From positions 1 through 43,507 of the forward strand of contig JAPKXR010000209.1 of assembly GCA_026394715.1 (NCBI GenBank): 43,507 bases of DNA. Reading direction: 5' to 3'. A program made the position numbers and the translations under genes. Below the pieces are notes generated by a model. That model saw nothing but the letters and a program-made list of their open reading frames with translations. It was not told where the DNA came from and ran no database searches. Positions 9,844 through 23,218 of this stretch are shown one piece after another (position 1 is the first letter of the stretch; every line of letters starts with the position of its first letter). The stretch is from Methanomicrobiales archaeon. Lineage in GTDB: Archaea; Halobacteriota; Methanomicrobia; Methanomicrobiales; Methanospirillaceae.

Positions 9844-12657
9844 ATGAGTAACGTACCAGAAAGGGATCGTGTGGACCCGGAACCAAAACCTGTCCATGCA
9901 CTCACGGTTTCGGAAGTCTACCAGCGTTATACCACTGATCCCGGTGGACTGGCCCGGGCAGTAGCCGGAGAGCGACTCCTGCGTACAGGCAAAAATGTCA
10001 TCCTGGAGATGAAGGGGAAACCCCTCATTTTCAAATTCTTTTCCAATTTCACTCACCTGATGGCGATCATGTTGTGGATTGGTGGTGCTGTCGGTTTCAT
10101 TGCCCAGATGCCACAACTGGGTATTGCCATCTGGATGGTCAACATCATCAATGGCCTTTTTTCATTCTGGCAGGAATTCAGGGCAGAAAAGGCAACAGAA
10201 GCCTTAAAAAAACTTATTCCCTCGTACACCCGCGTGCTCCGCGATGGTGAAGAGCAGCGTATCCTGTCGGAAGACCTGGTACCAGGGGACCTGATGCTGT
10301 TAGCCGAAGGAGACCGAATCTCGGCTGATGGCCGCCTTGTGGCGGCAGCTGACCTTCGGGTCGACCAATCGATCCTTACCGGCGAATCGAGGGCACTTAA
10401 AAAGATCAGTGAGCCGGTCCTGCAGACCGACCTGCCCTATGCCGAACTCCCCAACATGGTGTATGCCGGAACAAATGTCGTTACCGGCACCGGCAAGGCC
10501 ACGGTCGTTGCCACCGCGATGGCAACCGAGTTCGGAAAGATTGCCCACCTGACCCAGTCGGTCAAGGACGAACTCAGCCCCCTCCAGAAAGAGATGGCGT
10601 TTGCGACAAAGATCGTGACCATTATTGCCTGCACGGTCGGCGTGATCTTTTTCCTCCTCTCTGCCGTGCTGGTCGGGGTGAACCTTGCCGAGAGTTTCAT
10701 CTTTGCCCTCGGGATGGTCGTGGCATTTGTTCCTGAGGGCATGCTCCCCCTCGTGACCCTCTCCCTTGCCATGGGGACTCAGCGGATGGCCAGCCGTAAT
10801 GCCCTGATCAAGCGGCTTTCCGCGGTCGAAACCCTGGGGTGCACGACGGTGATCTGTACAGACAAGACCGGCACTGTCACCCAGAACGAGATGACGGTAC
10901 GGGACATCTGGCTTTCCGGTCGTAGCCTGGCGGTCACCGGGACAGGGTATACCCCTGAAGGCCAGGTCCTCGAAAACGGGCAACCGGTTCCCCCGGATAG
11001 CGATCTTCGTCAGCTGCTGGTCGCCGGAAGTCTCTGCAACAATTCCAGGGTGGTCCGGCCAGTTCCTGATTCTTCCCACTGGACAATCCTTGGAGACCCG
11101 ACCGAAGCGGCGATGAAAGTGGTGGCACAGAAGACTGGTGTAGACCCGGTTACTGAAGCCCGGCAAACACCGCGTCTCCGTGAGGTCCCCTTTGATTCAG
11201 TCCGCAAACGGATGAGTACCATCCACCAGATGCCATCGTCCCAGGTCGCGTACGTGAAGGGAGCGCCGAAAGAGATCCTTGGCCTTTGTTCACGCATCCG
11301 GAACAACGACGTATGCCGTCCGATGGACGAGGAGGCCCGGTCCCGGATCATGACTACGAACGATGATTACGCCCGGAACGGGCTACGTGTCCTTGCCGTT
11401 GCTCTGCGTGACCTGCCTGACAGCACGGTTGATTACCGGCCGGAGTCCATCGAACAGGACCTCTGCTTCCTGGGCCTGGTCGCCATGATGGACCCTCCCC
11501 GGAATGAAGTAGCCCTAGCTGTTGAGAAATGTCACCGTGCCGGCATCCGTATCGTGATGATTACCGGGGATTATGGGCTGACCGCAGAGAGTATCGCAAG
11601 GCGTATCGGTATTATCACGCAGCAAAGACCCCGTATTGTCAGCGGGAGTGATCTCGATGCCCTGGATGACGACGGGCTCAAAGCGGTGCTCAGCGATGAA
11701 GTAATCTTTGCACGATCTGCCCCTGAACACAAACTCAGGGTGGTCATGGCCCTGCAGGAGATGGGGCATATCGTAGCGGTCACCGGGGACGGGGTGAATG
11801 ATGCCCCGGCGCTCAAAAAAGCCGATATCGGCATCGCCATGGGCATTGCCGGCACGGATGTGGCAAAGGAAGCCGCCGTCATGATTCTCGCTGATGACAA
11901 TTTTGCATCTATTGTCAATGCGATCGAGGAGGGGCGGGGGGTGTATGCCAACATCAGGAAATTTATCAGTTACATCTTCACCAGTAACACGCCTGAAGCC
12001 GTGCCGTTTATCCTCTGGGCCCTCAGCCGCGGGCAAATTCCGCTCGCCCTCAATGTAATGCAGATACTTTCCATCGATCTTGGCACGGACATGGTACCGG
12101 CACTGGCCCTTGGCAATGAGCCGCCCGAACAGGGACTGATGGATATGCCCCCCCGGAACATGAAGGAGCATGTGATCAACCGGTCCCTGATCATCCGGGC
12201 CTACCTTTTTCTCGGGTTGCTCCAGAGTATTGCAGCAATGGCGGCGTTCTATTTCATGTACTGGACCAGCGGCTACTGGGGCCAGTGGCTCGGTCTCCCC
12301 TCATCCGGGACCCTGTACCAGGCTGCGACGGCAATGGCGCTTGGTGTTGTGGTCACGACCCAGATCGGAAACCTGTTCGCCCAGCGTACCGAGCGTACCC
12401 CGACGTTCCGTTTGAGCTGGTTTGGGAACCGGATGATCTGGATCGGGATTATTTCAGAGCTTCTGATTGTGTCGCTGATTATCTATCTCCCATTCTTCCA
12501 GCAATTCTTCGGGACAGCTTCGTTCCCGCTGGTCTATTGGGTCTTCCTGTTTGCATGGGCCCCGTTACTGCTGCTGGCCGACGAATCCAGGAAGGCGCTC
12601 CTGCGACGGAGGGAGAAGGAGAGAAAAATCTTGTCTTTAGGAGGAAGTACTGTATGA
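9844..12657 (+). CDS. P-type cation ATPase, Na+/K+-ATPase-like (P2 type)
   Basis: A 937-residue membrane pump coupling ATP hydrolysis to cation transport. In order: an N-terminal cation-ATPase domain, actuator loop TGES near residue 180, TM4 motif VPEGMLPLVT near 296, phosphorylation site DKTGT near 340, KGAP nucleotide motif near 471, hinge GDGVNDAP near 648, and C-terminal helices. TM5 SNTPEAVP and TM6 DLGTDMVPA match the Na+,K+-ATPase ion site (SN.PE and DLGTDMVPA with both aspartates), whereas SERCA-type pumps differ there. This favours an Na+/K+-type P2C-like pump over a Ca2+ pump, as inference from these residues. The 3' end overlaps the first TrkA gene by 4 bases, tying the pump to K+-related regulators. 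No beta subunit is seen. Confidence 0.93.
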   Translation: MSNVPERDRVDPEPKPVHALTVSEVYQRYTTDPGGLARAVAGERLLRTGKNVILEMKGKPLIFKFFSNFTHLMAIMLWIGGAVGFIAQMPQLGIAIWMVNIINGLFSFWQEFRAEKATEALKKLIPSYTRVLRDGEEQRILSEDLVPGDLMLLAEGDRISADGRLVAAADLRVDQSILTGESRALKKISEPVLQTDLPYAELPNMVYAGTNVVTGTGKATVVATAMATEFGKIAHLTQSVKDELSPLQKEMAFATKIVTIIACTVGVIFFLLSAVLVGVNLAESFIFALGMVVAFVPEGMLPLVTLSLAMGTQRMASRNALIKRLSAVETLGCTTVICTDKTGTVTQNEMTVRDIWLSGRSLAVTGTGYTPEGQVLENGQPVPPDSDLRQLLVAGSLCNNSRVVRPVPDSSHWTILGDPTEAAMKVVAQKTGVDPVTEARQTPRLREVPFDSVRKRMSTIHQMPSSQVAYVKGAPKEILGLCSRIRNNDVCRPMDEEARSRIMTTNDDYARNGLRVLAVALRDLPDSTVDYRPESIEQDLCFLGLVAMMDPPRNEVALAVEKCHRAGIRIVMITGDYGLTAESIARRIGIITQQRPRIVSGSDLDALDDDGLKAVLSDEVIFARSAPEHKLRVVMALQEMGHIVAVTGDGVNDAPALKKADIGIAMGIAGTDVAKEAAVMILADDNFASIVNAIEEGRGVYANIRKFISYIFTSNTPEAVPFILWALSRGQIPLALNVMQILSIDLGTDMVPALALGNEPPEQGLMDMPPRNMKEHVINRSLIIRAYLFLGLLQSIAAMAAFYFMYWTSGYWGQWLGLPSSGTLYQAATAMALGVVVTTQIGNLFAQRTERTPTFRLSWFGNRMIWIGIISELLIVSLIIYLPFFQQFFGTASFPLVYWVFLFAWAPLLLLADESRKALLRRREKERKILSLGGSTV

Positions 12658-13304
12658 AAATCATGATTATCGGGTGTGGAAGGCAGGGGGCCGAACTGGC
12701 AAAAATCCTCATCCTGAATGGATCGGAGGTGACCGTTGTGGATAAAGACCCAGCCGCGTTTGAGCGGGTGGGGCCTTCATTCAAAGGACGGGTTATTCCT
12801 GGGAGTGGGATTGACCGCGATGTCCTGGTAGAGGGGGGCATCGAACATGCGGATGGAATGGCAGCGGTAACTGCCAGCGATGATATCAACATCGTCGCTG
12901 CGCGACTTGCCCGCCAGGTCTTTATGGTACCCCGGGTTGTTGCCCGCGTGCATGACCCGCTCAAGGCCGAGATATACCAGAGACTTGGCCTGATGACTGT
13001 CACCCCGGTAATGCTGGGGACCGAGCGGTTCCGGGAACTACTCAGTTTTTCCCCGCTTTATCCCATTAAAAGGCTTGGGAATGGCGAGGTGAGTATTATT
13101 GAGATCGAAGTACCTCACGGCCTCATCGGTCGGACTGCGCATGAGCTGACGGTTCCCGGGGAGGTCCAGGTGGTGGCGATTACCCGGGGCAATAAGACCA
13201 ATATCCCGATGTCCGGTGCGGCATTCCTGGAGAAAGATATCATCCATCTGGCAGTTGAATCGGGTTCCACCGGCCGACTGAACGCGTTGCTCGGGATGAC
13301 ATGA
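12654..13304 (+). CDS. TrkA-type K+ channel/transport regulatory protein (first copy)
   Basis: A 216-residue cytoplasmic protein with an RCK/TrkA_N Rossmann domain (MKIMIIGCGRQGAELAK at the N-terminus, GxGxxG dinucleotide site, acidic VVDKD end of strand 2) and a C-terminal TrkA_C domain (about residues 135-216, IIEIEVP, GRTAHEL, DIIHLAVE). Such proteins bind NAD(H) or ATP/ADP and gate Trk/Ktr transporters or channels. I start at ATG 12654, preceded by aggagg, because the long upstream open frame is an antisense-like read of the ATPase gene in another frame. The start overlaps the pump stop (ATGA). No TrkH/KtrB membrane subunit is present in the window. Confidence 0.9.
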   Translation: MKIMIIGCGRQGAELAKILILNGSEVTVVDKDPAAFERVGPSFKGRVIPGSGIDRDVLVEGGIEHADGMAAVTASDDINIVAARLARQVFMVPRVVARVHDPLKAEIYQRLGLMTVTPVMLGTERFRELLSFSPLYPIKRLGNGEVSIIEIEVPHGLIGRTAHELTVPGEVQVVAITRGNKTNIPMSGAAFLEKDIIHLAVESGSTGRLNALLGMT

Positions 13305-13314
13305 GGGGAATGAA

Positions 13315-13986
13315 ATGAAATACGTTCTTGTAGTGGGTGGCGGTAAGGTTGGGACATATCTGGCGTCTATCCTCATTGCCGACGGTAACACGGTGAAGGT
13401 GATTGAAGGAAATCGTGAGGAGTTTAACCGTATGAGCAGGGATCTGCCCCCAGAGGTGCTCATCATGGGTGAGGGGACAGACCCGTCCGTGCTGGAAGCT
13501 GCCGGAGTGCGGAAAGCTGATGTCGTTGCAGCGGTGAGCCGGGCAGACGAGACGAACCTGGTGATCACCAGTCTTGCCCGTTTTGAGTTTCACGTCCCAA
13601 GGACTATTGCCCGGGTCAATATCCCGAATAATGCCTGGATGTTTACCCCTGAAATGGGCGTCGATGTGGCATTGAACCAGGCTGACCTGATGGCCCACCT
13701 GATTGCGGAAGAGATGTCGCTTGGGGATATGATGACCCTGCTCAAGTTACGGAGGGGGCAATATTCCATCGTCGAGCACCAGGTAACTCCCGGGGCCCTT
13801 GCGGCCGGGAAACATGTCAGTGACCTGGCTTTACCCCACGATTCTGTGCTGATCGCCATCATCCGCGGGGGGAATTTGATCGTTCCCCGCGGGGAGACGG
13901 TACTTCTACCGGACGATACGGTGCTGGCTCTCGTGCACAGCTCACAGCTCGACCCGTTGGCCTCCGTGCTGATGGGGCCTGGATGA
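13315..13986 (+). CDS. TrkA-type K+ regulatory protein (second copy)
   Basis: A 223-residue paralogue of the preceding gene, 10 bases downstream. The N-terminal Rossmann site is MKYVLVVGGGKVGTYLA with VIEG at the end of strand 2; the TrkA_C half runs from about residue 140 (YSIVEHQVTPGALAAGK) to LVHSSQL. The difference in the strand-2 acidic region (VIEGN here, VVDKD in the first copy) may mean different nucleotide preference. Two tandem single-RCK proteins could form a heteromeric regulatory ring, the role filled by the two halves of bacterial TrkA. Part of the operon with the P-type pump. Confidence 0.9.
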   Translation: MKYVLVVGGGKVGTYLASILIADGNTVKVIEGNREEFNRMSRDLPPEVLIMGEGTDPSVLEAAGVRKADVVAAVSRADETNLVITSLARFEFHVPRTIARVNIPNNAWMFTPEMGVDVALNQADLMAHLIAEEMSLGDMMTLLKLRRGQYSIVEHQVTPGALAAGKHVSDLALPHDSVLIAIIRGGNLIVPRGETVLLPDDTVLALVHSSQLDPLASVLMGPG

Positions 13987-14698: not shown

Positions 14699-15088
14699 AT
14701 GGATAAAAAAACGATCTTAGGGACCGGTAAAATCAGTGAAAGTAAGGAATCTGCCGCAACGGGTAACGTAACGTCAGAGGAGTCACTTCTCGAGCAGATC
14801 CGTGCCAAGGAGGAGGAGCAGAACGGGAGGATTGAAGCTGCCAGGCTACAGTACATCAAGGATGTTGAAAATGCCCGGACGGAAAAAGAATCCAGGCTTT
14901 CCCGGGAACGGACTCTCGTGCAGACTGAGGCAGATTCTGTCTGGCGGGAGGCAATGGACCGCATCAATTCTGATGTCGAACGGGTCCTCGGCGAAGGAGA
15001 GCAGCTGGTACGCCTCGAACGGGAACGGAAGGAACGGAGGTTTTCCGGGGTCGCCGACAGTGTGGTTCGGGAGATCAGTAAAAGGTAA
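14699..15088 (+). CDS. atpH: A-type ATP synthase subunit H
   Basis: A 129-residue peripheral-stalk subunit (AhaH). It is almost entirely a long charged coiled coil (about residues 28-120, EQIRAKEEEQNGRIEAARLQ, then heptads with R/E pairs), preceded by an unstructured ~27-residue N-terminus. With subunit E it forms the right-handed coiled-coil stator that links the A1 head to subunit I and resists rotation torque. Start ATG 14699 follows aggaggg 6 bases upstream. The gene is followed after 6 bases by atpI, the usual archaeal order. Confidence 0.85.
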   Translation: MDKKTILGTGKISESKESAATGNVTSEESLLEQIRAKEEEQNGRIEAARLQYIKDVENARTEKESRLSRERTLVQTEADSVWREAMDRINSDVERVLGEGEQLVRLERERKERRFSGVADSVVREISKR

Positions 15089-15094
15089 CCGGGT

Positions 15095-17035
15095 ATGATA
15101 CAGAAGATGAAAAGTGTCCTGGTGGTGGGTCCTAAATCGGACTTCAGTCAGATCGTCGATGTACTGTACCATATGGGCACAATCCACCTTGAAGAGGTGA
15201 GCGAATATCTTCAACCGGGAAGCGGGAATGTGCGGAAGATACTGACCTGCAGCATGACGGATATCCCGGTACTTCTGGCTACAATAGAAGGGATCTCACT
15301 CCTCCTCCCTGCAGTAAAGGACCGTTCCAATCTCACGGCACAACGGTATGAAGAGATCAGTCACCTGTCAACGCCAGAAGTCATTGCCAGGGTTAGTCAC
15401 GTAGTCGGGATTGTCGGGGAGACGGTGAGAGACCTGTCAACAAAAAAGAGTGACCTTGAGATCGCCATCACCGGACTGGACCGGTACGAGAAAATTATCG
15501 ATAAAATCCAGCCACTCGAACAGCAACTGCCGGTACTTCATGGCTATGAAGTTACGGTTCTTGTAATCCAAAAAGAATATGAGGACGTCCTTGAGATCAT
15601 TCGTCCGGCGTTATCAGATCTTACGAATGGCCAGTTTGAACTGATATCTGCTGACCTGGACGAACAGACAATTGCCGTAATCACCGTGTTCAATAAACAT
15701 TATTCTGAAAATGTCCACCGCTTCCTGTTCTCCAAAAACATTAATGAAGTCCGTATACCCGCAGATTATTCGAACATGCCGCTTGATAAGGCGCTGCTCC
15801 TGATCGATAAAAACCGCCGGGATGCCGGGTCCGAGAAAGATACTATTGATAACGATCTTACCCGTGTCTCACAGGAATGGGGCCACGAGCTGGCGGCATT
15901 GCAAAAGGTCCTGACGGAACGGGGCGAAGAGCTCAGTGCCTACAACAATTTCGGTGAAACTGATTATACCGTGATGGTCCTGGGCTGGGTCCCGAAAAAA
16001 CTTATCCCTAAGACAAGGAGTGCATTGAATGAGGCATTCCAGGGCCGGGTGGTGATGACAGAAACAGACGCTACAACAGAGACGATGGACCGTGCCCCTA
16101 TATCCTATGATAACCCCCGGTGGGTGCGCCCGTTTGAATTTCTTATGAAACTTGCAAGCCCTCCACAATATAACGAAATTGACCCAACCCCACTCATGGC
16201 GATATTTTTCCCGATATTTTTCGGAATTATTGTAGGTGATATCGGGTATGGTATCCTGATCCTGGTCGTCGGGTTGTTTATACGGTTCCGTTTCGGGGCG
16301 ATAACATGGCTCCGGCAGATATCGGGTATCCTGATCATTTCATCCTTTCCGGCAATCTTCTTCGGTTACCTGTTTGGGGAATTCTTCGGGAATTTTGGCC
16401 AGATGATGGGGTGGCTTGAGCCGGTTACCCTTTTCGGGATCACATGGGACCGCATAGAGGCCATGATCCCGCTTCTTGTCCTGACGATTGCAATCGGGGT
16501 ATTCCACGTGGTCCTCGGGCTTGCGATCGGGGTTGTTAATTCGATTACCCGGAAGAACCGGAAACACACCTGTGAAAAATGTGGGATGATTGGTGTTATT
16601 GCCGGTCTGATCCTCGTCCTTTGCCTGGTAGCAGGATTGCTTCCCGAAGCCCTGTATATCCCTGCTTTCATTCTCCTTGGGATCGCCGTGGCGTTTGTGA
16701 TTTATGGTGGTGGTACCGGTGGCGCCATTGAGATAATGGGGACGGTGGGTAATATTCTCTCATACGTCCGCCTGATGGCGATTGGGATGGCATCCGTCAT
16801 CCTCGCCATGGTTGCCAATGAACTCGGTGGTTCGATGGATGTGCTGGCGTTGGGTGTCTTTATTGCAGTAATGCTGCACACATTGAACCTGATGCTTGCG
16901 ATGTTCAGCCCTTCAATTCACAGTGTGCGGCTGCATGTTGTGGAATTCTATTCAAAATTTTACCACGGGGGTGGACTACCTTACCGCCCGTTCAGTTCAG
17001 GAGACAAACCCGGGATGATCGATGGTAAGAAGTAG
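15095..17035 (+). CDS. atpI: A-type ATP synthase subunit I (stator a-subunit homologue)
   Basis: A 646-residue membrane subunit homologous to V-ATPase subunit a. The N-terminal ~350 residues are soluble (VLVVGPKSDFSQIVDVLYHMGTIHLEEV at the start, described here only in part) with coiled-coil arms that bind the E/H stalks; the C-terminal half holds about seven membrane helices from residue ~365 (MAIFFPIFFGIIVGDIGYG). The conserved SYVRLMAIGMA helix near residue 555-565 carries the arginine that faces the rotor-ring carboxylate during ion translocation. It forms the two ion half-channels of AO. A loop CEKCGM after residue ~490 has a Cys pair; its role is unknown. A ~100-base gap separates it from atpK. 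Confidence 0.96.
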   Translation: MIQKMKSVLVVGPKSDFSQIVDVLYHMGTIHLEEVSEYLQPGSGNVRKILTCSMTDIPVLLATIEGISLLLPAVKDRSNLTAQRYEEISHLSTPEVIARVSHVVGIVGETVRDLSTKKSDLEIAITGLDRYEKIIDKIQPLEQQLPVLHGYEVTVLVIQKEYEDVLEIIRPALSDLTNGQFELISADLDEQTIAVITVFNKHYSENVHRFLFSKNINEVRIPADYSNMPLDKALLLIDKNRRDAGSEKDTIDNDLTRVSQEWGHELAALQKVLTERGEELSAYNNFGETDYTVMVLGWVPKKLIPKTRSALNEAFQGRVVMTETDATTETMDRAPISYDNPRWVRPFEFLMKLASPPQYNEIDPTPLMAIFFPIFFGIIVGDIGYGILILVVGLFIRFRFGAITWLRQISGILIISSFPAIFFGYLFGEFFGNFGQMMGWLEPVTLFGITWDRIEAMIPLLVLTIAIGVFHVVLGLAIGVVNSITRKNRKHTCEKCGMIGVIAGLILVLCLVAGLLPEALYIPAFILLGIAVAFVIYGGGTGGAIEIMGTVGNILSYVRLMAIGMASVILAMVANELGGSMDVLALGVFIAVMLHTLNLMLAMFSPSIHSVRLHVVEFYSKFYHGGGLPYRPFSSGDKPGMIDGKK

Positions 17036-17091
17036 GCTTCCATCGCTTATTTTCAATAAATAATGAAAATTTAAAGTTTTTCAGGCATCAA

Positions 17092-17107
17092 TCTTTAAAT
17101 AATATAA
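17092..17107 (+). promoter_or_regulatory. Possible internal promoter for atpK
   Basis: The 103-base gap between atpI and atpK is unusually AT-rich for this operon. tctttaaataatataa resembles a TATA box and would start transcription about 12-15 bases before atpK. An own promoter would help supply the ring subunit, needed in many copies. Not proven. Confidence 0.4.
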
Positions 17108-17138
17108 GAACACTGTTACGGATCGGAGATGTTGTAAA

Positions 17139-17354
17139 ATGGCGTGGGAAGTTGCAATTGGGGCGGCAATCGCATTTGCCGGTGGCGCGATCGCGACAGG
17201 CTGGGCACAATCAAGGATTGGTGCTGCGGGAGCTGCGACTATAGCAGAAAGGCCTGAAGCGGCAGGGAGTGTTATTGTGCTTGAGGCAATCCCTGAGACG
17301 ATGGTAATTCTCGGCTTTGTGGTCGCAGCCATGATCGTAATCATGGTCAGGTAA
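17139..17354 (+). CDS. atpK: A-type ATP synthase subunit K (rotor ring c-subunit)
   Basis: A 71-residue proteolipid with two membrane helices: AIGAAIAFAGGAIATGW (about 6-22) and VILGFVVAAMIVIMV (about 56-70), joined by a short polar loop. The IPET motif contains Glu53, the ion-binding carboxylate of the second helix. One helical hairpin per subunit means the ring has one carboxylate per hairpin, unlike methanogens with fused multi-hairpin c-subunits. Whether H+ or Na+ is carried cannot be settled from the visible motif. It has spaced flanks on both sides (103 and 124 bases), unlike the rest of the operon. Confidence 0.93.
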   Translation: MAWEVAIGAAIAFAGGAIATGWAQSRIGAAGAATIAERPEAAGSVIVLEAIPETMVILGFVVAAMIVIMVR

Positions 17355-17377
17355 GGTAGTCGTTATCCTGTATCGAA

Positions 17378-17457
17378 CAGGGATTCCCGGATATGAATCC
17401 TGCCGGGATCCCCGGGACACTAAGTTCCCTGCTATTATAAGGGTATGACAGCAGGCG
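17378..17457 (+). other. Stem-loop-rich spacer between atpK and atpE
   Basis: cagggattc (17378-17386) can pair with gaatcctg (17395-17402) with one bulged G, a second imperfect ccggg...cccgg pairing follows, and cctgct (17428-17433) pairs with agcagg (17449-17454). Such structures after the ring-subunit gene could protect its 3' end or reduce read-through into atpE. There is no oligo-T tract, so a terminator is unlikely. Confidence 0.4.
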
Positions 17458-17478
17458 GGGAGGAATTGGTCAAGCCCT

Positions 17479-18075
17479 ATGAAATATGACCACCTGATCC
17501 AGGCAATTGAAGATGGTGCAGAGGAAAAACTCCGGGACATCCGGGACAGCAGAGACCGTGAAATCCGGGACATCAGGGAACGTGAAGAGCGAGAGTCCGG
17601 ACAGTTACGTAAGGACCTGCTTGCTGAAACAAAACGACTGATAGACCTCGAAAATAACAAGCGGATGTATTCGGCTCGTGAGCAGATAAAAGAGAAGCTG
17701 GCACGGGCACGCCAGGAGGCCTGTCTTTCGGTTTTCCAGGAGGCTGCGGAACGGCTCTCATCAATACGTGCAAGCCCTTCATATGAGGCGTTTTTTGAGG
17801 CGGTGCTGTCTGAGATAACTGAATCGCTGAACAGCGAAAAAATCCGCCTCCATATCGATAAAAAAGATGAGGCTTTGTGCCGGCAGCTGGTTAAAAACAC
17901 CGGGAAGGAAGTTGAGGTTGTCATTGATCTTTCTACCGTGGGCGGGCTCTCAGGCTCAACTCCGGATGGAAAGGTTGTGGTCCGGAATACGATTGAAGAC
18001 CGCCTTGTCAGGGCAAGAGAACGTATGAACGTAGTCGTATTTTCGGGACTCTACGGTGACCGGGATGTACGTTGA
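17479..18075 (+). CDS. atpE: A-type ATP synthase subunit E
   Basis: A 198-residue peripheral-stalk subunit. Residues 1-100 are a highly charged helix rich in RD/RE repeats (LRDIRDSRDREIRDIRERE), the coiled-coil partner of subunit H; residues ~105-198 form the globular C-terminal domain that binds the A/B head (VEVVIDLSTVGGLSGSTPDG, VVVRNTIEDRLVRARE near the end). The start ATG 17479 is preceded by ggggaggaatt. The 3' end overlaps atpC by 11 bases, so translation of C is probably coupled. Confidence 0.93.
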   Translation: MKYDHLIQAIEDGAEEKLRDIRDSRDREIRDIREREERESGQLRKDLLAETKRLIDLENNKRMYSAREQIKEKLARARQEACLSVFQEAAERLSSIRASPSYEAFFEAVLSEITESLNSEKIRLHIDKKDEALCRQLVKNTGKEVEVVIDLSTVGGLSGSTPDGKVVVRNTIEDRLVRARERMNVVVFSGLYGDRDVR

Positions 18076-19114
18076 GTACGTAAACGCACGTGTCCATGGC
18101 ATGTCAAGCCGCCTGATCACCATCCACGGGTTTGAGCGGCTGATTGCCCAGCCTTCTCTTGACGGTATCATAACGGAACTTGAAAAGACGCCCTACCGTG
18201 AAGAAATTGTTGAGGCACGTATACTGCATACAGGAATCGGCTGCATCGAATATGCCCTCCGGAAAAATCTACTGAAGACCTACCGGAAAGTCTTCGCTCT
18301 CGTAGAAGGGGAAAAGTCTGCACGTTATATTACAATATTCTTAAAAAAATGGGATGTCCAGAATATAAAGACGATAATCCGGGGGAAAAATATCCAGGCG
18401 CCGAACGAAGTAATCTCCGGCTGCCTTATCCCTGCCGGTACAATGGATGAAACGACGCTGATTGAACTGGTGAAACAGCCCGATGTCCGTGCCGTTGTAG
18501 ACCTGATGGCAACCTGGGATATCGAGTACGCCGTTCCCCTGACGCGATATATCGGAGAATTTTTTGAACAGAACAAAATAGGCACACTGGAGTATGCACT
18601 GGACGAGTACTATTTCGAGTCATCTCTAAAGGAATTAAGTGGAAAGCGCCAGGACGACAGGGTCGTTTGTGACCTCATCGGGACTGAAATTGATACCAGG
18701 AATCTCAAGACGGCATTGATGATGATCCGGGATTCCGTCCCCGCAGATGATGCCGCCCTGTTTCTCCTCAAGGGCGGAAAGGAGATCAATACCGGGATGA
18801 TTCTTGATATGGTCCGGACAAAAAAAATACCGGATGCAGTCCGACTCCTTGAGTCGACGTCCTACCGTTTTCTCCAGTCTGTTCCTGACATAGAAGTCTC
18901 TGGTGGAAAGATCTCCGTATTAGAAAAAGAGCTTGACCGCTACCTGATCAGGAAAGGGATTGCGATGTTCCGCGGTGACCCGCTCTCGTTCACCATCGTG
19001 ATCGGGTACCTATGGGCAAAATTAAATGAAATCACGAATATCCGGGTTATTTCCCGTTGCAGAGAGGCTGGAATGCCTGACGAACTGATGGAGTCTGAGA
19101 TTTTCTATGTATAA
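18065..19114 (+). CDS. atpC: A-type ATP synthase subunit C
   Basis: A 349-residue funnel-shaped central subunit (V-ATPase d homologue) that sits on the K ring and connects the central stalk D/F to the rotor. Sequence features are the N-terminal YVNARVHGMSSRL start and three repeated helical lobes (AEY/EYALRKNLL near 60, EYAVPLTRYI near 155, and a final lobe ending in FTIVIGYLWAKLNEITNIRVI near 300-320). A GTG at 18056 is in frame, but ATG 18065 has the better spacing to the ggtga site and gives the typical N-terminus. The gene overlaps atpE upstream, and its stop overlaps the start of atpF. Confidence 0.95.
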   Translation: MYVEYVNARVHGMSSRLITIHGFERLIAQPSLDGIITELEKTPYREEIVEARILHTGIGCIEYALRKNLLKTYRKVFALVEGEKSARYITIFLKKWDVQNIKTIIRGKNIQAPNEVISGCLIPAGTMDETTLIELVKQPDVRAVVDLMATWDIEYAVPLTRYIGEFFEQNKIGTLEYALDEYYFESSLKELSGKRQDDRVVCDLIGTEIDTRNLKTALMMIRDSVPADDAALFLLKGGKEINTGMILDMVRTKKIPDAVRLLESTSYRFLQSVPDIEVSGGKISVLEKELDRYLIRKGIAMFRGDPLSFTIVIGYLWAKLNEITNIRVISRCREAGMPDELMESEIFYV

Positions 19115-19427
19115 ATATGTGGTTGTCACGGATCCGGAGACTGCAGCAGGTTTTCGTCTTGCCGGTGTGGAGGTAATTGAGGTATCCACCCCGGATGAGG
19201 CGAAAAAAGTTATTCCTCCCCTCCTGAATGCGGATGATACCGGTATTATCGGGGTAAGTGAGGAGTTCATGTCAGTACTCGATCCCGAACTGTTGGCAAC
19301 GATTGAGAAGACGTACCGGCCGATTATCATCCCAATCCCCGGTCGTATGAAAAAGGTGGCATCAGAAACATATATCGAACGGCTCCTGCGACGGGCAATC
19401 GGGTACAACATTGTGGTGAGGCGATAA
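19107..19427 (+). CDS. atpF: A-type ATP synthase subunit F
   Basis: A 106-residue small central-stalk subunit that binds subunit D and regulates the catalytic head. It has the Rossmann-like start [20 protein letters not shown], a middle strand [12 protein letters not shown] near 48-58, and the conserved basic C-terminal tail [18 protein letters not shown], which can extend along the head. Length and both motifs agree with the family. It overlaps atpC by 8 bases and is followed by atpA after 2 bases. Confidence 0.95.
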
Positions 19428-19429
19428 AT

Positions 19430-21169
19430 ATGATACAAGGTGTCATTTCAAGGATCTCCGGTCCGGTTATCCTCGCTGAACAGATGCGTGGGTCGAGGAT
19501 GTATGATGTGGTCAGGGTCGGGGAAAAATCCCTGGCCGGAGAGGTCATCAGGCTGGACGGTGAAAACGCAGTTATCCAGGTCTACGAGGATACGTCGGGG
19601 TTAAAGGCAGGTGAGCCGGTAAAAAATACCGGGATCCCCCTTTCAGTGGAACTCGGTCCGGGCCTGATCTCATCGATTTACGATGGTGTCCAGCGTCCGC
19701 TCTCGGTGCTTGCAGAACTTTCAGGGAGTTTTATTTCCCGTGGGATCTCGATCCCCGGTCTTGACAGGGCAAAAAAATGGGAGTTTGTCCCCCTGGTAAA
19801 GGTGGGAGACCAGGTCGTCGGTGGTGATATAATCGGGAAGGTTCAGGAATTCCATATCGAACACCGAATCATGGTCCCCCCCCGTGATTCCGGTACAGTC
19901 CGTGAGATCCATGGTGGTAATTTCACCGTCGAGGAGACCGTCTGCACCCTCGATAATGGAACGGAACTGCGGATGATGCAGACCTGGCCGGTGAGGAAAG
20001 AACGTCCATCTAAAAAGAAACTTGATCCAAAAGTCCCGCTCCTGACGGGCCAGCGGGTATTTGACAGTCTCTTCCCCCTGACGAAGGGTGGCACTGCCAT
20101 GATCCCGGGTGGGTTCGGGACCGGCAAGACGGTTTCAGAACAGACCCTCGCGAAATGGGCAGATGCCAGCGTCATCGTCTACATCGGTTGCGGGGAACGT
20201 GGGAATGAAATGACCGATGTGCTTACCGAATTCCCGGAACTGGTCGACCCGAGGACGGGTCTCCCCCTCATCCAGAGGACAATAATGGTCGCAAATACTT
20301 CCAATATGCCGGTTGCAGCCCGTGAAGCTTCGATTTATACCGGTATCACTATGGGCGAGTATTACCGTGACATGGGGTACGATGTTGCCCTGATGGCGGA
20401 CTCCACTTCCCGCTGGGGTGAAGCACTCCGCGAGGTATCAGGCCGGCTGGAAGAGATGCCCGGTGAGGAGGGGTACCCGGCATACCTTGCCACAAGACTC
20501 GCCGCATTTTATGAACGTGCAGGCCGGGTGATCTGTCTTGGGAACCGGGAAGATACCGGGTCAGTCACGATTGTCGGGGCGGTCTCACCTCCCGGTGGGG
20601 ACTTTTCAGAACCGATTACCCAGAATACGCTTCGGATAGCAGGGACGTTCTGGGCCCTCGACACAAGCCTCGCCAACAGGCGGCACTTCCCGTCAGTCAA
20701 CTGGATTAAAAGTTACTCGCTGTACCTCGAGAGCCTGGAGGACTGGTATACGAAAAACATCGCACCTGACTGGATGGAGATAAGAAACCAGACGATGTAC
20801 CTCCTCCAGAAAGAGATCGAGCTGCTGGAGATTGTCCAGCTGGTAGGTCCCGATGCACTTCCCGAGAGTGAGAAGCTGATCCTCGAGATAACAAGGATGA
20901 TCAGGGAAGATTTCCTCCAGCAGAGTGCGTACAGCGATGTTGACTCCTATTGTCCGCTCGACAAACAGTACTGGATGCTCCGGGTAATCCACACGTTCCA
21001 CAAAGAAGCATCGGTGAAGATGGGGCAGGGGGTTACCCTGAAACAGGTGATGGGGATCCCTGAACGGAGCGAGATCGCAAGAATGAAAGAGGCACCCGAT
21101 TCTGTGCGGCTGCAGGGACTAACCGTTGCCATCACAGACCGGATGAAATTGCTGGAGGTGGAGAAGTAA
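19430..21169 (+). CDS. atpA: A-type ATP synthase catalytic subunit A
   Basis: A 579-residue catalytic subunit that synthesises ATP in the A3B3 head. An N-terminal beta-barrel (residues ~1-70) is followed by the ~90-residue insertion typical of A-type/V-type catalytic subunits (about 110-200), then the P-loop GGFGTGKT near residue 226, the catalytic [11 protein letters not shown] region near 253, Walker [11 protein letters not shown] near 322 and the helical C-terminal domain. The standard A-subunit P-loop is GPFGSGKT, so Gly and Thr replace Pro and Ser here; these are conservative positions. The stop overlaps atpB (TAATG). Confidence 0.97.
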
Positions 21170-22566
21170 TGACCGGATTTGACCTCTCAACAAGGGAATA
21201 CCGTTCAGTTTCCTATGTCTCCGGGCCTTTGATTTTTGTCGAAAACCCCCGGAATGTTGCATTCGGTGAGACTGCAGTTATTACTCTCCCCTCGGGTGAG
21301 GAAAGGTCCGGCCAGGTACTGGAAGTCTCACGTGAGCTTGCGGTAGTCCAGGTCTTTGAAGGGACCAGCGGGGTTGATAATTTAAGGACTGCAGTCCGCT
21401 TTACCGGGGAACTTCCCCAGATCAACGTGTCCCTTGATATGCTGGGCCGGGTCTTTTCCGGGGTAGGAAAACCAAGAGACGGGAAACCGGACATCATGGC
21501 AGACGAGACCGTGGATATCTCCGGTATGCCCATCAACCCCTATTCACGGGATAAACCGTCGGATTTCATCCAGACGGGAATGTCGACGATAGACGGCCTT
21601 AACACGCTCGTCCGGGGCCAGAAATTACCGATCTTTTCCGGATCAGGTCTTCCGGCAAACAAGCTGGCTGCGCAAATTGCCCGGCAGGCAAAAGTTCTTG
21701 GGAGCCAGGGGCAGTTTGCCGTGATATTTACTGCGATGGGAATTACCCATAAAGAGGCATCGTTCTTCATGAAGGACTTTGAGAGAACCGGTGCACTCGA
21801 ACGGGTGGTGTTCTTCCTCAACCTTGCAGATGACCCGACCATCGAGCGGATTGCCACGCCGAGGGTCGCCCTGTCAGTTGCCGAATACCTCGCGTACCGT
21901 CATAACCTCCATGTGCTGGTCATCCTCACCGACATGACTAATTATTGTGAGGCGCTTCGGGAGATTTCCACTGCCCGCGAGGAAGTGCCTGGCCGGCGTG
22001 GCTATCCCGGCTACATGTATACCGACCTGGCATCCATCTACGAGCGGGCTGGAAGGATCAAGGGGAAATCCGGGTCGATTACCCAGTTACCCATCCTCAC
22101 GATGCCGGACGATGATATTACCCACCCGGTTCCTGACCTTACCGGTTACATCACGGAAGGGCAGATTGTCCTTTCACGTGACCTGTTCAGGCGGGGTATC
22201 GATCCCCCGGTGGATGTCCTCCCCTGCCTCTCCCGCCTGATGAACCTCGGGATTGGCGTGGATAAAACAAGGGATGACCACCGGAATGTGGCCGACCAGC
22301 TCTACGCATCATATGCATACGGCCGTGACCTGAGAAGACTCGTTGCGATTGTTGGTGAAGAGGCGCTGACGGACCTTGACCGTAAGTACCTGAAATTTGC
22401 CGACGATTTCGAACGAAAATTCATCTCGCAGGGGTCAGAAGAGCGGAGTATCCACCAGACGCTTGAAATTGGGTGGGAATTGTTTGCAAGTCTCCCGGAA
22501 GAGGAATTAAAACGCGTGAAACTTGACCATATCAGGAAATATCACCCGGCGCACCGGGCGGGATGA
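21169..22566 (+). CDS. atpB: A-type ATP synthase regulatory subunit B
   Basis: A 465-residue non-catalytic subunit alternating with A in the hexameric head. It has an N-terminal barrel ([14 protein letters not shown]), a nucleotide-binding-like core in which the P-loop is replaced by GSGLPANK near residue 162, [16 protein letters not shown] near 258 and the [15 protein letters not shown] motif near 280. Lack of a functional P-loop is normal for this subunit. Start ATG 21169 overlaps the atpA stop by one base, and atpD follows after 4 bases. Confidence 0.97.
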
Positions 22567-22570
22567 TTCA

Positions 22571-23218
22571 ATGGAGCAGGTGAATCCGACACGGATGGAA
22601 CTCCTGAAGAAGAAGACCCAGATACGCTTAGCCGAGCAGGGGAAGGACCTGTTGCGGCAGAAGATGGATGCCCTGATCAACGAGTTCTTCAGGATTATGG
22701 GGACGGTATCACGTTCCCGTGACGAACTTGAGGCGATTGCAGAAACTGCCATGCGTTCGCTTGTAGTTGCACAGGCCGTGGATGATAGTATCGCGCTACG
22801 GTCCGCATCGTTTGCCACCAAGCGCCATATCACCCTGGATATTCATGGCCGGAATATCATGGGCGTACCGGTACCGGTCATTGAAAAGAAAAGCCAGGTA
22901 TTAAGTGTCCTTGAACGGGGTTACAGTATCACCGGGGTATCCGGGCGGATTAATGAAGTTGCCGAGAAGTATGAACATGAACTGGACCTGATCACCGGCC
23001 TCGCAGAAACGGAGACGGCGCTCCGCCGTCTTGGGGAAGAGATCCAGATGAACCGGAGGCGGGTTAACGCGCTTGAACAGGTGCTTATCCCTGAATTGCA
23101 GAGACAGGCGAAATATATCCGGATCACAATCGATGAGCGTGAACGGGAGGACTTGTTTCGTCTTAAAAAAGTAAAAAAGATACTGGAAAGGAAGAAGAAA
23201 AGCCGGAAAAAAATGTGA
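22571..23218 (+). CDS. atpD: A-type ATP synthase subunit D
   Basis: A 215-residue central-stalk rotor subunit. It consists mainly of two long helices forming a coiled coil: the N-terminal one (PTRMELLKKKTQIRLAEQG, then LLRQKMDALINEFF) and the C-terminal one from about residue 125 to 195 (NRRRVNALEQVLIPEL, IRITIDEREREDLFRLKKVK), with a short globular middle. The extremely basic tail (KKVKKILERKKKSRKKM) is typical. I start at ATG 22571, which gives the conserved N-terminus; an upstream in-frame codon at 22523 would overlap atpB. It is the last gene of the operon: no G-like gene follows. Confidence 0.95.
   Translation: MEQVNPTRMELLKKKTQIRLAEQGKDLLRQKMDALINEFFRIMGTVSRSRDELEAIAETAMRSLVVAQAVDDSIALRSASFATKRHITLDIHGRNIMGVPVPVIEKKSQVLSVLERGYSITGVSGRINEVAEKYEHELDLITGLAETETALRRLGEEIQMNRRRVNALEQVLIPELQRQAKYIRITIDEREREDLFRLKKVKKILERKKKSRKKM

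Follow-up and report, generated by a model that had tools for sequence, protein, structure and literature searches.

The window, a stretch of 43,507 nucleotides from a contig of a Methanomicrobiales archaeon, carries an operon of three intact, closely packed open reading frames on the forward strand. The first (9844..12657, +) encodes a 937-residue P2-type, Na+,K+-ATPase-like cation pump, assigned by Pfam and NCBIfam matches, a solved relative and an AlphaFold model. It is followed by genes for two stand-alone TrkA-type proteins, RCK1 (12654..13304, +; 216 residues, TM1088A/CeoC-like) and RCK2 (13315..13986, +; 223 residues, TM1088B/CeoB-like). As the original prediction had it, the pump stop overlaps the first TrkA start and the second TrkA follows after 10 bases; the ORF coordinates confirmed both, with a 4-base overlap (ATGA) at the RCK1 start codon at 12654 and a 10-base gap between the end of RCK1 at 13304 and the start of RCK2 at 13315. 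Two adjacent single-RCK genes are also the arrangement of the genes for the TM1088A/B ring. An A-type ATP synthase-like gene cluster lies after the operon (window positions 14699-23218); it was not found downstream at loci L009 or L011.

The pump matched the Pfam families E1-E2_ATPase (E = 5.5e-47) and Cation_ATPase_C (E = 6.9e-43). Its closest solved relative was Na,K-ATPase alpha1 (E = 5e-157), with LMCA1 and SERCA at 1e-150 to 1e-132. Against TIGR01106, the Na+,K+-ATPase alpha model, it scored 610 bits, below the cut-off of 946, and it fell under every NCBIfam subtype cut-off, the one model that it passed being the general one for the P-type ATPase superfamily. The top fold matches of the AlphaFold model (pLDDT 79) were Na,K-ATPases when ranked by E-value, and some SERCA entries superposed on it with higher TM-scores than the Na,K-ATPases did. 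Within the window operon there was no beta subunit, and the pump operon held no KdpA/C/F-like subunits.

Na+,K+-ATPase-like ion sites had been predicted for this pump, and alignment with Na,K-ATPase upheld them for TM5, with the motif TSNTPE (11980..11997, +; equivalents of T774, S775, N776 and E779), and for TM6, with the motif DLGTDMVPA (12076..12102, +; equivalents of D804, T807 and D808). All the K+/Na+ site residues of TM4-TM6 (E327, S775, N776, E779, D804 and D808) are found in the window pump, and in most of its clade too. At the third Na+ site, equivalents of Q923 (Q840 in TM8; 12361..12363, +) and E954 (E872 in TM9; 12457..12459, +) are present, but residue 843, which aligns with D926, is N.

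RCK1 and RCK2, which we take to resemble Mycobacterium tuberculosis CeoC and CeoB, each consist of TrkA_N and TrkA_C domains by Pfam (RCK1: TrkA_N at 1.1e-24, TrkA_C under the Pfam cut-off; RCK2: TrkA_N at 3.5e-23, TrkA_C at 4.7e-13). RCK1 matched TM1088A at 2.9e-22 and RCK2 matched TM1088B at 1.4e-27; the best fold match of the predicted RCK2 model was also TM1088B, chain C of the two-subunit ring in 3L4B. Both proteins show the features expected of RCK/KTN regulators, a TrkA_N domain of the Rossmann type that carries GxGxxG plus an acidic residue. In RCK1 the nucleotide motif, supported by residue counts in the RCK1 family, is GCGRQG (12672..12689, +; G7, G9, R10 and G12), together with D30 and R98, and all these residues correspond to AMP contacts in TM1088A (PMC4380455).

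To gather relatives, the window pump was used as query in a scan of named genomes and in five further genome searches, the latter drawing ~1,490 genomes. These five had their centres in Halobacteriota, Chloroflexota, Bacillota, Desulfobacterota and actinobacterial loci, and phylum assignments are those of each named centre; L034, a MAG with the name Fusobacteria, came from the phylum of the Clostridium centre, so that its name may be wrong. In a FastTree phylogeny of the 127 distinct long pump sequences collected, 96 fell into one clade (support 96), the deeper order being uncertain because of several long branches. The order pump-RCK1-RCK2 was found for 74 of the 96 clade pumps, 72 with both RCK genes downstream and 2 cut by contig ends, and RCK genes accompanied none of the 31 related pumps outside the clade. 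The 74 come from genomes of the Halobacteriota, Chloroflexota, Bacillota, Desulfobacterota and Actinobacteria draws. The median spacing was 39.5 nt from pump to RCK1, with a 4-nt overlap in 17 cases, and 11.5 nt from RCK1 to RCK2. Pump and RCK distances showed no more than a moderate correlation (Spearman 0.51 and 0.44). It is exceedingly improbable that this order reflects chance or sampling. The window pump did serve as query for the whole collection, but the 31 outgroup pumps were gathered likewise and have none, and the order is kept at 47-65% identity in several phyla while the flanks change; the contrast of 74/96 with 0/31 refutes chance adjacency. In genomes that hold only 2-9 TrkA_N matches each, a linkage of 74/96 versus 0/31 is far beyond chance. 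The pump-TrkA-TrkA order, whose conservation the original prediction had left to be checked, is thus strongly conserved in the clade. The pump, RCK1 and RCK2 almost certainly work together. Pump-RCK fusions, considered as Rosetta-stone proof, were absent among the pumps collected; the long pump ORFs proved to be EIIA fusions and this line was dropped.

Among the 74 RCK-linked pumps, the equivalents of E327, D804 and Q923 were kept in 74 each, E779 in 73 and E954 in 68, with more variation at S775 (59, with H in 14), N776 (64, with L in 10) and D808 (65, with E in 9); the D926 position was mostly N. The changes S775H, N776L and D808E occur together in pumps L081, L082, L085, L094-L096, L129, L133 and L144, and the ions transported by this type may differ. 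Because outgroup pumps carry most of the same ion-site residues, the ion motifs are no marker of the RCK clade. Within the set of pumps compared, the P-domain motif TGDYG (11563..11577, + in the window), conserved in the pump clade, does mark it, unlike the ion motifs: it was present in 65/74 RCK-linked, 5/8 EIIA-fused, 0/8 Lactobacillus and 0/31 outgroup pumps. A search for a pump surface unique to RCK-linked members yielded only H71 under a strict filter, the other signature residues being common to EIIA-fused pumps.

The residues that bind adenine nucleotides are retained in both RCK families. In RCK1 (n=72), GxGxxG was kept in 72/72, R10 in 62/72, D30 in 69/72 and R98 in 71/72; of the RCK2 proteins (n=72), 70/72 have GxGxxG, 70/72 an acidic residue and 69/72 the arginine. 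At the position of E125, the divalent-cation glutamate in the PE motif at the KtrA dimer interface (PMC6957272), neither RCK1 nor RCK2 has a glutamate, which rules out a divalent site of the KtrA type. The published c-di-AMP signature of RCK_C domains, (I/L)(I/L)X2DX1RX5N(I/L)(I/L) (PMC10117811), was found in 0/72 RCK1 and 0/72 RCK2 proteins, some of the RCK2s being truncated, and c-di-AMP sensing through this signature was ruled out. RCK2 is shortened to ~133-140 residues, without RCK_C, at L072, L075-L079, L083, L084, L134, L136 and L137; the loci whose RCK2 is missing its C-terminal domain include several from Chloroflexota and actinobacteria.

Not every clade pump has an RCK pair. Eight carry an N-terminal EIIA domain and 14 have neither RCKs nor EIIA, namely 8 from Lactobacillus, 2 from Flexilinea, 1 in a tandem (L214) and 3 others without RCKs. 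The Lactobacillus pumps (L027, L028, L030, L032 and L035-L038) lie within the clade on a long branch and have lost TGDYG along with having no RCK genes; the two Flexilinea pumps are directly upstream of an RCK-linked pump; and in the tandem, pump-RCK1-RCK2-pump (L214:7923-15061), one RCK pair lies between two pumps. Because the pump persists in Lactobacillus and a few other cases with no accompanying pair, pumping does not require the RCKs.

In the eight EIIA-fused pumps (L105-L109 and L111-L113), the N-terminal domain, at about residues 1-150, is of PTS EIIA type 2 (EIIA-Ntr-like; Pfam PTS_EIIA_2, E = 1e-28 to 3e-7), with the phosphorylatable active-site His in 8/8. They group as a single clade (support 99), and no RCK genes lie next to them. 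The presence of a pump-fused EIIA in an RCK-less subclade indicates that the regulator seems replaceable. In other bacteria, Trk and Kdp systems are targets of EIIA-Ntr proteins, and an exchange of RCK for EIIA therefore fits a swap of regulator for regulator.

RCK proteins are known to gate K+ channels and transporters of the secondary type, classically as partners of TrkH and Ktr. The pair could accordingly regulate another K+ transporter or channel with its gene elsewhere (TrkH, KimA, Kup or a 2TM channel) and adjoin the pump only through co-expression for K+ homeostasis. Such transporters do occur close by: TrkH lies directly upstream of the pump in two Methanoregula relatives (L013, and L031 by likeness of the ORF), TrkH with double TrkAs lies near the pump operons at L208, L209 and L212, KimA-like transporters lie near the operon at L020, L189 and L196, and Kup adjoins L012. 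KdpD/KdpE-like pairs, under the NCBIfam equivalog cut-offs, lie upstream of the operon in [Clostridium] aerotolerans, C. minihomine and G1338. These K+ gene neighbours point to K+ homeostasis. The window genome (G000) itself has one Kup, as well as other proteins that bear RCK domains, among them a 2TM channel that has two.

We nevertheless regard this explanation as unlikely, given the genomes in which the operon occurs without the expected partner. The window genome, a draft of 402 contigs (98.2% complete, 0.9% contaminated) in which absence is not proof, gave no match to TrkH (PF02386) and no KimA-like transporter; on these grounds a distant KimA partner and the notion that the RCKs are orphans of a distant TrkH were both rejected for this genome. 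The result agrees with the original prediction, which had called for a check for TrkH elsewhere in the genome. A second methanogen genome (G295) also has neither TrkH nor KimA. TrkH was not found in the genomes of two Clostridium isolates and Flexilinea flocculi; the operon stands without TrkH in G304, G305 and G306. In [Clostridium] aerotolerans, whose genome has no TrkH and has KimA elsewhere, the only two TrkA_N matches genome-wide are those in the operon. The TrkHs of G309 and G318 have RCK genes of their own.

The RCK trees also tell against a partner other than the pump. RCK1 and RCK2 form two orthologous families, near-clades apart from TrkH-linked RCKs, and on the tree the RCK1 label takes 2 changes and the RCK2 label 4, compared with ~56 in shuffles. 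Orthologous RCK1-RCK2 pairs also lie beside a KimA-like transporter in actinobacteria without the pump (loci L249-L266, and also L190:7269-10603); the only solved relative of the L190 transporter is KimA (E = 1.7e-141). When KimA- and TrkH-linked pairs were added to the tree, the partner label changed 3 times for RCK1 and 5 times for RCK2, compared with 20 and 28 in shuffles. Label changes so far below those of shuffles indicate that RCK lineage follows the kind of neighbour. A tryptophan of RCK2, W108 (13636..13638, +), located by RCK2 sequence comparison in the motif VN.P.N.W(L/M)F, was present in 69/76 pump-linked, 18/18 KimA-linked and 0/12 TrkH-linked proteins sampled, and was rejected as a pump-specific mark because KimA-linked RCK2s have it too. 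The KimA loci suggest a membrane partner for CeoBC-type proteins. The idea of a TrkA use beyond TrkH/KtrB thus survives in the conserved pump linkage, but the use is broader than the pump, since such pairs also adjoin KimA.

A further possibility is a ring shared between the pump and a K+ channel or transporter, which would couple passive flux with active pumping. Sharing is possible in the two Methanoregula, with TrkH upstream of the pump (TrkH-pump-RCK1-RCK2), and the orders KimA-pump-RCK1-RCK2 in G567 and pump-RCK1-RCK2-pump in L214 are in keeping with it. Most pump-RCK loci, however, have no second transporter adjacent, and TrkHs often have their own RCKs, and we consider a shared ring quite improbable in general.

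Direct action of the ring on the pump is the most economical explanation, the main reason being that certain genomes have no other known partner for RCK proteins. Counting against it are the TrkH upstream of the pump in the two Methanoregula, the KimA of [Clostridium] aerotolerans, the Kup of the window genome, the pumps kept without RCKs, the absence of pump-RCK fusions and the modest correlation of distances. Judged by sequence comparison, a two-subunit RCK ring probably controls the Na+,K+-ATPase-like K+/Na+ pump by acting on it directly. The three genes would then be one K+/Na+ homeostasis unit, in which the pump most likely imports K+, exports Na+ or does both. By homology to 3L4B, RCK1 and RCK2 would form a two-subunit ring, probably an A4B4 octamer as in Thermotoga TM1088A/B. 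This ring would bind adenine nucleotides, may dock on the cytosolic side of the pump, and once docked could switch it according to nucleotide state. Co-inheritance across several phyla, in bacteria and archaea, points to an ATP-burning pump being switched by a nucleotide sensor of the sort known until now from K+ channels and transporters. On a wider proposal we are evenly divided: that a portable RCK module of two subunits became wired to a TrkH channel, a KimA transporter and a P-type pump, three unrelated folds; that on the pump it would be a nucleotide-sensing on/off ring, making this the first RCK-controlled primary ion pump; and that it was swapped for a fused PTS EIIA in a sister lineage.

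If a P-type pump has a conserved RCK pair as its regulator, primary active transport would join the processes under nucleotide control. In the open-licence literature we found no paper linking RCK/TrkA proteins to a P-type pump, and TrkA goes unmentioned in a 2023 review on the Na+,K+-ATPase-like pumps of archaea. Archaeal P2C pumps were discussed by Palmgren as uncharacterised, with the question of what they do in archaea (PMC10654040), and the pump-RCK linkage would give a handle on that role. For RCK pairs like CeoB/CeoC, which have been studied with no TrkH named, it would also point to different membrane partners, for example KimA.

Among known systems, the alpha subunit of Na+,K+-ATPase (P2C) resembles the window pump by closest solved sequence and by fold, and its E327, S775, N776, E779, D804, D808, Q923 and E954 have equivalents there; the window pump differs in scoring under the TIGR01106 cut-off, in having N for D926 and in having an RCK pair instead. 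KdpFABC-KdpDE likewise includes a P-type K+ pump, and KdpDE-like genes lie upstream of some pump-RCK operons, but the Kdp pump is of P1A type with KdpA/C/F, whereas the window pump is P2-type with no such subunits in its operon. TrkHA and KtrAB have RCK ring regulators, as RCK1 and RCK2 would be by homology; the window genome differs in having no TrkH/KtrB, and RCK1 and RCK2 in having no PE (E125) divalent site. M. tuberculosis CeoB and CeoC, which are called Trk, are a pair of stand-alone TrkA proteins that take part in K+ uptake according to excerpts of two papers, which name no TrkH (PMC6375644, PMC13163235); KimA-linked loci of this type, unlike the window, have no adjacent P-type pump. 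The ring of Thermotoga maritima TM1088A/TM1088B (PDB 3L4B, PMC4380455) is likewise encoded by two RCK genes with overlapping or adjacent ends, and its subunits are homologous to RCK1 and RCK2. In contrast to TM1088A/B, the nucleotide motif is intact in both window RCKs and a C-terminal domain is present in RCK1, and the neighbour of the window pair is a P-type pump, where that of TM1088A/B is a Trk channel.
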